A stretch of 64,000 nucleotides of DNA from Armatimonadota bacterium (lineage in GTDB: Bacteria > Armatimonadota > HRBIN16). Where the stretch lies: NCBI GenBank assembly GCA_026003195.1, contig BPGU01000003.1, positions 372,001 to 436,000 of the forward strand. Direction: 5' to 3'. Each line of letters begins with the position of its first letter. Position 1 is the stretch's first letter. The notes under the pieces were generated by a model. It had not been told where the DNA came from, did not search any database, and saw nothing but the letters and a program-made list of their open reading frames with translations. Below, in pieces: positions 46,526 through 50,691 of the stretch. The translations under genes and the position numbers were made by a program.

Positions 46526-48256
46526 CTACTGCGGCGACACATGCAGTGTTTTCTCGTGGGTATAGGTGACGAAGCCAGGCTGTGCGCCACGCGGACGACG
46601 TACATACTTGCGCAGGGTGTAGTCCACCGGCACGATGGAAGAGTGACGTTGCGGACTGTTGGCGGCGGCGAGCTGGGCTGCGAACTCCAGCACCTGTCGG
46701 GGAACCGCCTGGGGATTGTTGTTCGTGCGTATCACCACATGCGCACCCGTGCCTGCCCGAACGTGCAGCCACCAGTCGTTCGGTTGCGCCACGCGCGTCA
46801 CCAGGTAGTCATTCGCCTCGGCGTTTTCGCCCACCAGCACCTGCCAGCCTCCCGGTGCCAGGTGCACGCGGATGCGCTTGCCCTCAAAGTCCTCCTGTGG
46901 TCTGGCAGACACCTCGCCGGAGACGCCGGCGGTAGGGTTCAGCCAGCCGCGTGCGGCTATCTCTTCGCGCAGAGCTTGCAGCTCGGAGAGCTCGCGCACC
47001 GACTCCAGGCGTTGCAGGGTATCCTGTACTTGCCTCTCTTCGCTCCTCAAACGATAGCGCATCGCTTCCAGCTTCTCGGCGTTTTGCTCCACGTGGCGTG
47101 CGCGTGCGAAGTATCGCTCCGCGTTCTGCTGGGGCGTGAGCGTGGGGTCTAAAGGGATGGTGACGGTGGCTCCGTCAGCACCGTACAGGTCGGGCAGGGT
47201 CACCTCCACTGCGCCTTTGGGTACCTGCGGCAAAAACGCCAGCAGGGTTTCGCCCCAGCGACGGTACTGCTCCGCTCTGGTTCGCTCCCGGACTCCCTGC
47301 TCCAGCTGCTGCAGGGCATTGCGCCTAGCGCTGAGCACCCGCTGCAGAGTGCCCTGCAGACTGCGCTTTTGCTGTTCCATCTCCGCGTGGGGGATAGCGA
47401 CCGCGTAGTAGTTTTCCAAAGCGACGTGGATATTGCTGCGCGGATGTTGCTGTTCTTCGGGGAAAGACGCCAGCGGAATCGGATAGGCACCGATAGGGCG
47501 ACGCGCTTCGTCACGCACCAGCACAGGTTCCCAGTCACCCTGCCTTGCCGCCTCGAACACCGAGCGGAACGCCCCCCAGAGAACCTCGGGGTCGTTAGGG
47601 TGCCCCAGCCTGTGTGCTCGCGCCGCTATCTCGCCAGCCAGGAAGCCTCCGATGCCTTCGAATCGGGCACGCAACCACTCGGCGAAATCGGTAGGTTGCT
47701 CCTGTTGATACCACTGCAGGAACTGGGACTCGGACACGGTGCGCGGGTCAGGGCGCTCTTCGGCAGGAGGTGGGGTGTACGGTTTACCCGGCAGCACCTC
47801 GCGCACCCGGCTGATACGGGAAGAGACCAGCTTTGCCGCGTGCAGGATGCGTTCGTCCGGGGCGATGAGGATGATGTTGCTGTGCCTGCCCATCAGCTCC
47901 GCACTGAGCAGGTAAGTGTGTCCCTCATGCCCCTTGACCTCCACATCCAGCACGCGGTCAAACCGTCTCTGGGCGATGGCCAGGATGGTGCCGCCCTGCA
48001 GGTATTTGCGCAAAGCCATGCAGAAGGGTGGCGGTTGGGGCGGGTTGGGCAGGCGATGGGAGAGCAGGTAGGTACGCGCCCACTGTGGCGAGCAGCTGAG
48101 CAGCCAGTACACTTCGCCCATGCCGCGCACATACACGGTCAACAGAATATCGTGTTCCACAGGCTGCGCGATGTGCTGGATGCGCCCGCCTTGCAGAGAC
48201 TGCAAAGCGTGTACCACTGCCGCCAGAGTGAGACTATCGTAGGGAATATGGGGCAC
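46526..48256 (-). CDS. rqcH: Rqc2/NEMF homologue RqcH (NFACT protein)
   Basis: A 576-residue NFACT protein of ribosome-associated quality control, which adds alanine tails to stalled chains on 50S subunits. The N-terminal block YDSLTLAAVVHALQSLQGGR and the GRHSNIILI motif, a central coiled coil (near 290-430) and the NFACT-R domain NDWWLHVRAGTGAHVVIRTN at the end are all present. GTG start with GGTGAGAG upstream. It lies 17 bases after the terminase gene, and a TATAAT on this strand in the terminase end (48283-48288) may give it its own promoter. Confidence 0.93.
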   Translation of the reverse strand: MPHIPYDSLTLAAVVHALQSLQGGRIQHIAQPVEHDILLTVYVRGMGEVYWLLSCSPQWARTYLLSHRLPNPPQPPPFCMALRKYLQGGTILAIAQRRFDRVLDVEVKGHEGHTYLLSAELMGRHSNIILIAPDERILHAAKLVSSRISRVREVLPGKPYTPPPAEERPDPRTVSESQFLQWYQQEQPTDFAEWLRARFEGIGGFLAGEIAARAHRLGHPNDPEVLWGAFRSVFEAARQGDWEPVLVRDEARRPIGAYPIPLASFPEEQQHPRSNIHVALENYYAVAIPHAEMEQQKRSLQGTLQRVLSARRNALQQLEQGVRERTRAEQYRRWGETLLAFLPQVPKGAVEVTLPDLYGADGATVTIPLDPTLTPQQNAERYFARARHVEQNAEKLEAMRYRLRSEERQVQDTLQRLESVRELSELQALREEIAARGWLNPTAGVSGEVSARPQEDFEGKRIRVHLAPGGWQVLVGENAEANDYLVTRVAQPNDWWLHVRAGTGAHVVIRTNNNPQAVPRQVLEFAAQLAAANSPQRHSSIVPVDYTLRKYVRRPRGAQPGFVTYTHEKTLHVSPQ

Positions 48257-48273: not shown

Positions 48274-49620
48274 TCAGCCCCTATTATACATCACCCTGCC
48301 CATCTGTTCACATTCCCTTCGTCTGCCGCTGGTCAGCGGACGCACGCTGGACGTGCCGAGCACACTCTTCCCTGCCGCCTGCACCGCCAGCGCCAGCGCG
48401 ACCACCAGGTCGTCGTGCTCATTGCCCTGCGCCTGCAGACGGGTATACCCGGTGGGGGTTCGGGTAGCAGTGAAGGCGTGCAGCTCGCGCAGCAGTTCTG
48501 GATGAGGTGGGATCTTCACACGCCCCTGCTCCATCGCCAGCGCCAGAGATTCTATCATCATCCGCTTCGTGGAGGGGGTGAAAACCACCGGCTCCAGACG
48601 CACTCCCACCCGATGGTCGCTCAGGCGTTGTTGAAGCATTTCCGCCAGCGGGTCGCCGATGCCGGTAGCGTCACAACACACAGCATGTATCCACCACTCG
48701 CTGAACCGGCGAATCAATCGGTCTATCTGGTTCTGCCATCCCGTGCCGGGCAGGCGTTCCACATGCACCGCATGAAGCTGTTTGTCCGTCTGGCGCAGCA
48801 CCACCAGCGCGGTAAAGTCGCGATAGCGTCCCCAGTCCAGCCCGGCGACGGTGGGGGTCAGTTCCGACTGGGCATCCGAGAGGCTGGGCAGAATACATGA
48901 TTCGAGCACCGCCTGCGGAAACACCGCCCCAGAGTCGTCCACAAACTGCGCCTCGTATTCGATGGCAAATTGCCGTTCGGTCAACAGCTGCCGTTGCATC
49001 TGCAGAAAGCTCGGAGAGATGCGCGGGTTGCTGGAGGTGGGGAAGCGGAAACTGCGGCATACTTCGCCCGACTGTCCTCGCTGGAACCACTGCCAGAAGT
49101 GATTCCTGCCAAAGGGGGTGGAAAGCAACACCAGCTGCCCTTCGGTATCCGCCAGCATGGGCATCAGCACCTGAGGAACAACCTCCTCGGTCAGGTAAGC
49201 GGCTTCATCTACCACGATGCGATGTGCACTTCTGCCGCGCAGGGAACGTGCCTGCCGATAGGCGCTGCGGGCGGTGATTTCACCATCGTGGACACGCACC
49301 CGTGGATAGGGAGTGGTGCGAACCTGTAGTTTGCTTCCCGTCTCTTCTGCCCACTGCTGAAGGAGTTCTACGGTGCGCTCCCAGAGGAGGCCTGCCTGGT
49401 CTAAAGTGGGAGCGACAATCACTTGCCGGATTCCGGGCTGGAGCAGGGCGAGCGCGGCGGTCTCCACTGCCAGCGACTCGGTTTTACCCCATCGCCTGCC
49501 ACATGCCGCCACCTTCACGGGATGGGTATCTAACATCCACTCGCGCTGTGCCGGATGCGGCGTCCATCCCCACCACTGCTCTGCTGCCTGCAGAATGCTT
49601 TCGGGAGAATACGTCCACAT
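48274..49620 (-). CDS. Orphan phage-type terminase large subunit
   Basis: A 448-residue terminase-like ATPase-nuclease. Walker A is CGRRWGKT (about residues 40-47), Walker B is IVVDEAAYL, and coupling motif LVLLSTPFG follows. The RNase H-like nuclease shows GLDWGRYRDF, CCDATGIGDPLAE and HDDLVVALALA. In phages this packages DNA into capsids. Here no portal, capsid or tail gene is nearby; the neighbours are rqcH and a methyltransferase. It may be a prophage remnant or a domesticated protein. GAGGTG lies 8 bases before the ATG. Confidence 0.85.
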   Translation of the reverse strand: MWTYSPESILQAAEQWWGWTPHPAQREWMLDTHPVKVAACGRRWGKTESLAVETAALALLQPGIRQVIVAPTLDQAGLLWERTVELLQQWAEETGSKLQVRTTPYPRVRVHDGEITARSAYRQARSLRGRSAHRIVVDEAAYLTEEVVPQVLMPMLADTEGQLVLLSTPFGRNHFWQWFQRGQSGEVCRSFRFPTSSNPRISPSFLQMQRQLLTERQFAIEYEAQFVDDSGAVFPQAVLESCILPSLSDAQSELTPTVAGLDWGRYRDFTALVVLRQTDKQLHAVHVERLPGTGWQNQIDRLIRRFSEWWIHAVCCDATGIGDPLAEMLQQRLSDHRVGVRLEPVVFTPSTKRMMIESLALAMEQGRVKIPPHPELLRELHAFTATRTPTGYTRLQAQGNEHDDLVVALALAVQAAGKSVLGTSSVRPLTSGRRRECEQMGRVMYNRG

Positions 49621-49725: not shown

Positions 49726-50691
49726 ATGCACTTTCAGTGCCTGTGGTGCCATTCTACCGCCATGGCGCGCACTTTCGTTGCGCAGGAGAGGTTGTTCGGC
49801 ATAGAGGGTGAGTTTGAATATGCCGAGTGCGCACAGTGTGGCTCTCTGCAAATCCTTCAGCCCCCCGAAGACCTGTCGCGTTACTATCCGCCCCAATACG
49901 ATGCCTACAACACCCTTCCGGACGCCTACTACCGAGGTCTGCTGGGGATTATCCGCGCCTGGCGCGACCGCACAGTGGCTACCGGCAAGGGGGTGCTGGG
50001 TAGACTGGTGTTGCTGGTGCATCCCCAGCAGGACCCGCGTGTGCGCAGCATCCGCTTGCTGAACCTCTCACCGGGCGCACGCGTGCTGGACGTCGGCTGT
50101 GGAAGTGGACTGCTGTTGCTCATCCTCTATCAGGTGGGCTTCAGGAATGTGGAAGGCATCGACCCCTACTACCCCTCCGAGCAGCCCGTCGGGGGCAAGG
50201 TTCCCGTCTACCGGCGTACTCTGCGGGAGCATCTCGAAGCGCAGCCGCCGCCCTACGATGTGCTGATGTATCATCACGTACTGGAGCACGTACCCAACCC
50301 CGAGCAGGAACTCACGCTGGCAAAACAGCTCCTGAAACCCAATGGCAGGGTGCTGGTGCGCCTGCCTCTGGCAGGCTCCTATCACTGGAAGCACTATGGT
50401 GTCGACTGGTTCCAGCTGGACGCTCCTCGTCACCTCAGTATTCCCTCGGTGCAGGGCATGAAGGCTCTGGCGGAGCGGTGTGGATACCGGGTGGAGTACG
50501 TTGGCTATGATGCTCTGCCACTGCACCTGCACGCCAGCGAGCTGTACCGCAAGGGCATCCTCGGCAGTCAGCACCGCCCCGAGATGCATCCCCCTGCTCA
50601 GTGGCGAGAGTTTGCCCGCTTGACCGCAAAGCTCAATCGTACGGGAGAGGCAGATTCGGGGGTATTTGTGTTGAAGGGGAAGGGTCTATAG
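49726..50691 (+). CDS. SAM-dependent methyltransferase with N-terminal zinc ribbon
   Basis: A 321-residue class I methyltransferase. The N-terminus has a treble-clef or ribbon pair, CLWC (residues 5-8) and CAQC (about 37-40). The SAM site is VLDVGCGSGLLLLIL, followed by DVLMYHHVLEHVPNPEQEL and PLAGSYHWKHYGVDWFQLDA. This layout is common in sugar or polysaccharide methyltransferases. An AGGAGG lies 19 bases upstream, rather far from the ATG. Divergent from the terminase gene. Confidence 0.85.
   Translation: MHFQCLWCHSTAMARTFVAQERLFGIEGEFEYAECAQCGSLQILQPPEDLSRYYPPQYDAYNTLPDAYYRGLLGIIRAWRDRTVATGKGVLGRLVLLVHPQQDPRVRSIRLLNLSPGARVLDVGCGSGLLLLILYQVGFRNVEGIDPYYPSEQPVGGKVPVYRRTLREHLEAQPPPYDVLMYHHVLEHVPNPEQELTLAKQLLKPNGRVLVRLPLAGSYHWKHYGVDWFQLDAPRHLSIPSVQGMKALAERCGYRVEYVGYDALPLHLHASELYRKGILGSQHRPEMHPPAQWREFARLTAKLNRTGEADSGVFVLKGKGL

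Follow-up and report, generated by a model that had tools for sequence, protein, structure and literature searches.

A lone terminase gene in an Armatimonadota genome, probably the packaging motor of a scattered and vertically inherited phage-head module

The terminase large subunit (TerL) encoded in the window, by which we mean the whole 64-kb stretch of DNA analyzed here (C3:372001-436000 of the host genome G000, 4.58 Mb in 29 contigs), is probably the packaging motor of a domesticated, vertically inherited head module that derives from a phage, is split into chromosomal loci and resembles a gene transfer agent. The first-pass annotation of this DNA had taken the gene for either a domesticated motor-nuclease or a gene-transfer-agent part separated from its locus. 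Our results support that proposal, and the second option is the better one, because the gene is present in all ten genomes of the genus and is under selection, a second locus is conserved as well, and TerL and the major capsid protein (MCP) follow the host tree. We have found no paper describing this module in the open-licence PMC literature.

The terL gene has an ATG start and encodes 448 amino acids with no internal stop. Its product combines an ATPase motor with an RNase H-like nuclease and is of the P74-26/P23-45 type. It matches the Pfam families Terminase_6C (53.9 bits, cut-off 22.6) and Terminase_6N (28.3 bits, cut-off 22), as well as PHROG_2 (terminase large subunit; 1.2e-45), and its two domains have relatives of solved structure, 4zni for the ATPase and 5tge for the nuclease, both of which we take to be structures of the terminase of phage P74-26. 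The features that are typical of such a TerL, i.e., a P-loop ATPase with Walker A and B motifs and the acidic residues of an RNase H fold, were all located in the window protein. The counts given with them come from 70 TerL rows of the phylum, each row being the best match of one genome:

48274..49620, minus strand: TerL, terminase large subunit (Pfam, PHROG, solved-structure relatives, conservation in the genus)
49480..49500, minus strand: Walker A motif GRRWGKT, residues 41-47 (K46 in 65/70 rows)
49195..49215, minus strand: Walker B motif VVDE, residues 136-139, read as VVDEAAY, 136-142 (D138 in 69/70 rows, E139 in 70/70)
48829..48843, minus strand: nuclease motif GLDWG with D262 (69/70 rows; aligned with 5tge)
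48661..48678, minus strand: nuclease motif CCDATG with D317 (D in 64/70 rows, E in 5/70)
48409..48417, minus strand: nuclease motif HDD with D403 (67/70 rows) and D404 (68/70 rows)

The first impression that the Walker A, Walker B and nuclease motifs are intact was therefore borne out by the residues of the window protein and by their retention across the phylum. The GC content of terL and of the capsid locus described below is 0.61-0.62, which is host-like, and that of prophage pieces of the same genome is 0.55-0.58. A scan of IMG/VR using the window TerL as query returned no relatives.

The genes at both sides of terL are host genes that do not belong to the module:

46526..48256, minus strand: rqcH (NFACT), host gene (Pfam; adjoins terL in 8/10 genomes of the genus)
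49750..50691, plus strand: class I methyltransferase, divergent host gene (Pfam; beside terL in 5/10 genomes of the genus)

Only 17 bp separate terL from rqcH, which lies downstream and is followed by purH, and the start of the methyltransferase gene was chosen by us within a longer open reading frame. The adjacency of rqcH, found in all genomes of the genus but G005 and G008 (n = 10), marks a fixed chromosomal site of terL in the genus. Pfam detected no phage family, integrases included, among nine other proteins scanned at 44.7-58.5 kb of the window, and there is no tRNA within the window. When 13 module proteins (TerL, portal, MCP, decoration protein, protease, the products of four small genes and four small terminase subunits, TerS) were searched by tblastn against the whole 64-kb window, TerL was the only one to match. 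Thus, the gene does sit alone between housekeeping genes, as had been noticed from the sequence, and the absence of portal, capsid and small terminase genes from its surroundings extends to the entire window, the portal and capsid genes lying elsewhere on this contig, about 150 kb from terL.

All ten genomes of the genus carry TerL, and in eight of the nine others it is 70-83% identical to the window copy. It is divided between two contig ends in G004, is clipped by a contig end in G008 and is most divergent in G001. The median dN/dS of TerL is 0.149 (9 genomes, the fragmentary copy of G004 being excluded), which is close to the values of its host neighbors RqcH (0.108; 8 genomes) and methyltransferase (0.116; 5 genomes), and indicates purifying selection. 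For the other genes, between 5 and 10 rows could be used, as contigs permitted, and within the genus the medians were 0.125 for the portal, 0.142 for the protease, 0.067 for the MCP and 0.060 for the decoration protein. The value of the G001 TerL is higher (0.18 versus 0.14), but RqcH also evolves faster in that genome (0.135 versus 0.104). In addition, TerL distances track those of RqcH within the genus (r 0.85), and portal distances do likewise (r 0.92). Since terL has been kept in the whole genus with a low dN/dS, we consider it an old gene under selection. The first-pass annotation had pointed to conservation and synteny in sister genomes, dN/dS and distant gene-transfer-agent loci as the places to look, and had reasoned that absence from close relatives or decay of the gene would make it a recent prophage scrap. 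Neither occurred, and conservation, purifying selection and the common chromosomal site rule out such a scrap.

The distant locus was revealed by searching 61 genomes for the portal family PF06074 and the capsid family phrog_371. In G000 it occupies C3:572163-580670, TerL itself being at C3:420277-421620, and contains, in this order, genes for a Mu-like head protease (PF10123), a decoration protein (phrog_1731), a gpT-type MCP (phrog_371), an 87-aa protein, c8, c5, c6, several host proteins including an ABC transporter, and a Mu-type portal (PF06074). Together with TerL, the portal, protease, decoration protein and MCP are what a tailed phage needs for building and filling its head. The 87-aa product may be holin-like, according to our reading of its sequence, and c8 is a fibre-like gene of about 350 aa. 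The c5 and c6 genes are presumed to encode head-completion proteins on account of their position and size; within the genus, profile searches yielded nothing for c5 and, for c6, just a weak match to RodZ_C.

Protease, decoration protein and MCP were each found in 10/10 genomes of the genus, and the four genes that follow the MCP gene in 9/10, the contig of the tenth (G008) ending at the MCP. The portal was present in 8/10 genomes, in one of them clipped by a contig end, and was not found in G008 or in G001, which is 98% complete; in G001 the module is perhaps being lost, or the portal gene falls within an assembly gap. In several members of the genus, the head genes and the portal gene are separated by a dockerin/DUF3466-type gene (L145:11158-14022 and similar) and an ABC transporter gene, which shows how host genes interrupt the cluster. 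The genes flanking the capsid locus, whose size had suggested tail genes, proved to be host genes instead: those scanned encode a rhamnosidase, a DUF1844 protein, a GNAT protein, a DUF72 protein, an S13 peptidase and UvrD.

Three tail families, PF10145 (tape measure), PF04984 (sheath) and PF13550, gave 0/10 each in the genus, in searches that covered 61 genomes each and in which 7, 3 and 2 of the 14 control genomes, respectively, were positive. With these searches negative in the genus, the tails by which DNA would be delivered may be encoded elsewhere, as in the second locus of FpGTA, the gene transfer agent of Faecalibacterium (PMC12946183), may be borrowed from co-resident phages or may be absent. 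Taken with the split loci and the host flanks, the same result speaks against an active or recent prophage, which should have its replication, integration and tail genes in a single contiguous element.

Phages do coexist with the module in G000, which has six other TerL loci. One prophage, on contig C1 (C1:646000-665900), carries a copy of c8 (L065:14656-15699) that is 83% identical to the c8 of the module (L140:7149-8213), the copies of seven other species being 67-74% identical to it. This likeness, as judged from the sequences, would be a sign of contact through the exchange of surface proteins between phage and module. Since its MCP gene is cut by both contig ends, contig C6 of the same genome (44,058 bp; L066, L067) is probably circular and complete, either a phage or a phage-plasmid. 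Its head is related to that of the module (MCP about 49% identical), and it encodes its own tape measure, for which no homologue was found in 20 other genomes. A scan of IMG/VR with the MCP yielded 20 distant relatives.

Beyond the genus, we have searched 291 genomes of the phylum, with thresholds of E<=1e-20 for TerL and E<=1e-10 for MCP and portal. TerL was detected in 127 of them, MCP in 120 and portal in 131, and 101 genomes have all three. TerL and MCP occur together in 104/291 (odds ratio 42, by a Fisher test that ignores relatedness). Some of the genomes having TerL alone (16), MCP alone (12) or portal alone (19) probably contain ordinary prophages. The module genes are mostly present in one copy per genome.

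The comparison of coordinates in 34 genomes revealed that the arrangement of these genes differs between families. In f17, f37, f38 and f39, TerL and MCP are 3-6 kb apart within a single cluster of 6-10 kb, and in f12, f30, f31 and f1 the distance ranges from 2 kb to 1 Mb. Within f12, TerL and portal remain about 1 kb apart in 18/19 genomes, with the MCP located 2 kb to 1,033 kb from TerL; in G200 (f31), assembled as one contig, TerL, MCP and portal occupy three loci separated by 178 to 1,039 kb. Further phage genes accompany the module in some families: a TerS gene (phrog_7344, 4e-10) precedes TerL in the f39 cluster, an amidase gene (phrog_435, 3e-34) follows the head genes in f17, and an endolysin gene (phrog_2649, 2e-28) follows them in f5, where TerL is elsewhere. 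No tail gene was recognized between the head genes in the clusters that were read, and tblastn against the loci retrieved from the genus detected no TerS homologue.

In four species of one f17 genus, a gene for a membrane protein that looks aquaporin-like from its sequence is placed between terL and the portal gene (L041:11164-11937, L042:10409-11182, L260:6946-7719 and L261:1659-2411). The MCP matches of f7 (Chthonomonas) were rejected as module copies; they lie with other head genes and resemble Mu-type prophages, judging by gene order alone. In L163, L164 and L165 (genomes G029, G015 and G034), relatives of the decoration and capsid genes are found beside a larger head gene (cluster c26), and these loci probably belong to Mu-type prophages, carried by Chthonomonas relatives and by a further family.

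To follow the inheritance of the module, trees were built for 30 genomes of 12 families, chosen from those having both TerL and MCP and using the best TerL match of each genome. The TerL, MCP and RqcH trees require 11 family label changes each, which is the minimum for 12 families, and each family with several rows is set apart from the others by a branch in all three trees, except f5 in that of TerL. Families f12 and f30 are neighbors in all three. The distances correlate with those of RqcH (0.73 for TerL and 0.77 for MCP), and none of 2000 permutations reached such values. With one genome per family, the correlations with RqcH were 0.57 for TerL (23/2000 permutations as high) and 0.735 for MCP (1/2000), and that between TerL and MCP was weak (r 0.43; 112/2000).

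In a tree of 27 genomes that included phage TerLs, the module TerLs of nine families formed one group, with a support of 81 that is not strong, apart from those of P23-45, phiFa and MMP17 and from the TerLs of the host's own phages on C1, C8 and C14. These co-resident phages were hence discarded as the source of the window TerL. The TerLs of f13 and f22 form the nearest outside group and, on the basis of their sequences, may belong to the module. The TerL of G019, a genome with 9% contamination, has a very long branch outside the module group, and is for these reasons probably not a module copy. A single domestication before these families split is the simplest account.

We propose that the host would express the separate loci together under some condition, so that capsid protein, protease and portal could assemble a procapsid. 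TerL would then dock onto the portal, pump in any chromosomal DNA within reach and cut it once the head is full; the products of c5 and c6 might close the filled head, and lysis would free the particles. The lysis genes of sister families fit release by lysis. Moreover, in many genomes the loci are too far apart for joint packaging, and thus any particle that formed would hold DNA from elsewhere, in the manner of gene transfer agents. More tentatively, the module may represent an ancient gene-transfer-agent lineage that pre-dates many family splits and has lost its tail module, its genes lying at up to three sites under joint selection and working though scattered, in a particle that would be tailless or would borrow tails; this extended version is possible, and we would not yet call it probable.

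The strongest competitor, although an unlikely one, is that the particle serves a use other than gene transfer, as a tailless capsid, empty or filled with DNA, employed for storage, as a phage decoy or in phage interference. It would agree with the failure of the searches run in the genus to find tail genes and with MCP and decoration protein being the most conserved members of the module, and the c8 gene held in common with a co-resident prophage would mean that module and phages swap surface parts. However, a TerL with intact ATPase and nuclease, together with a portal, would be pointless unless DNA were packaged and cut, and sister families have kept TerS and endolysin.

It is improbable that TerL and the capsid genes are leftovers of defective prophages, one or more, and are drifting out of the genomes. 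Their break-up into distant pieces resembles decay, the six additional TerL loci of G000 tell that phages are common, and short 'incomplete' prophages are reported in Fimbriimonadales MAGs in the available text of PMC8597652, one of which, 7.1 kb long and described there as having portal, head and capsid genes and no attachment site, may be this very module. Nevertheless, frames and catalytic residues are intact, dN/dS is near that of host genes, the chromosomal site is the same in most of the genus, the three genes are jointly present in about a third of the phylum genomes and the trees recover the host families. Neutral remnants would not persist over a divergence this large, the RqcH proteins of other families being 37-44% identical to that of G000.

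Still less credible is a satellite, or another slow-moving element, that uses the tails of helper phages. The cfPICI-like elements are capsid-forming satellites, and head genes lacking tail genes, in a genome with phages of related heads such as that of C6, recall them. Yet the module genes do not form one mobile unit, being spread over as many as three loci at distances of 0.2-1 Mb, mostly in single copy, with host-like trees and fixed neighbors in the genus. Finally, the recruitment of TerL alone to a new chromosomal job apart from the capsid genes, for instance in an rqcH operon, to which the short gap and the adjacency to rqcH in the genus lend some appeal, is about equally unlikely, since the adjacency is absent from G005, G008 and the 27 genomes of other families in which RqcH was located, TerL lies with the portal in f12 and with a full head cluster in f17, f37, f38 and f39, and its co-occurrence with MCP is strong.

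If the interpretation as a gene-transfer-agent-like module is true, the head and packaging genes of Armatimonadota would constitute a further independent domestication, at the scale of a phylum, and would account for those orphan terminase and capsid genes annotated as incomplete prophages. As their arrangement ranges from one cluster to scattered loci, depending on the family, they would offer a natural experiment on what holds a gene set together without linkage, and they raise the question of whether DNA packaging can still move genes when no tail is encoded. Since some hosts in the phylum have been cultured, the module is testable.

The formal classification of gene transfer agents recognizes three independently exapted groups in the available text of PMC9662315, and that of a 2026 paper (PMC12946183) adds Faecalibacterium as a further host. 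Of the six features in the definition of PMC9662315, as far as its available text goes, three were observed here: proteins derived from caudoviricetes (TerL, portal, protease, decoration protein and MCP match phage families), full endogenization at several loci, and mostly vertical inheritance, the one-per-family correlation between TerL and MCP being weak. The remaining three concern caudovirion-like particles, the packaging of mostly random host DNA rather than of the whole own gene set, and delivery to cells; loci up to 1 Mb apart are beyond joint packaging in an ordinary head.

Regarding individual phages, the TerLs of Thermus phages P23-45 and P74-26 (Oshimavirus) are among the closest annotated ones, with 86% of the protein aligned at about 30% identity, and the position of TerL beside the portal is a further point in common, but those phages have a whole genome of 84 kb, whereas here TerL stands alone. 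The portals of Mu-like phages, a group that includes FP_Mushu (Faecalibacterium) and RcapMu (Rhodobacter), are about 27-30% identical to that of the module. FP_Mushu also has an MCP 34.5% identical to the module MCP and the same order of protease, small protein and MCP, but its adaptor, neck, sheath, tube and tape measure genes follow within 5 kb, while none was recognized after c5 and c6 of the module.

The RcGTA-like agents (Rhodogtaviriformidae; PMC9662315, available text) and the module are alike in having phage-derived packaging and capsid genes that are inherited vertically and distributed in several loci. The module differs from them in phylum and in phage ancestry (P74-26-type TerL; Mu-type portal, protease and MCP), in the separation of TerL from the capsid genes and in that tail genes were not found by the searches run, and we call it gene-transfer-agent-like, as it is known here from its genes alone. 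The nearest precedent for the way in which the module might work is FpGTA of Faecalibacterium prausnitzii, which, according to the available text of PMC12946183, has a TerS-TerL-portal-scaffold-capsid operon, lysis genes and particles without identifiable tails, and a second locus, about 125 kb from the first, with baseplate and receptor-binding genes. FpGTA is documented in that text by its operon I in Faecalibacterium genomes, by particles with about 9 kb of DNA and by proteomics, and the module by its genes in many families of Armatimonadota.
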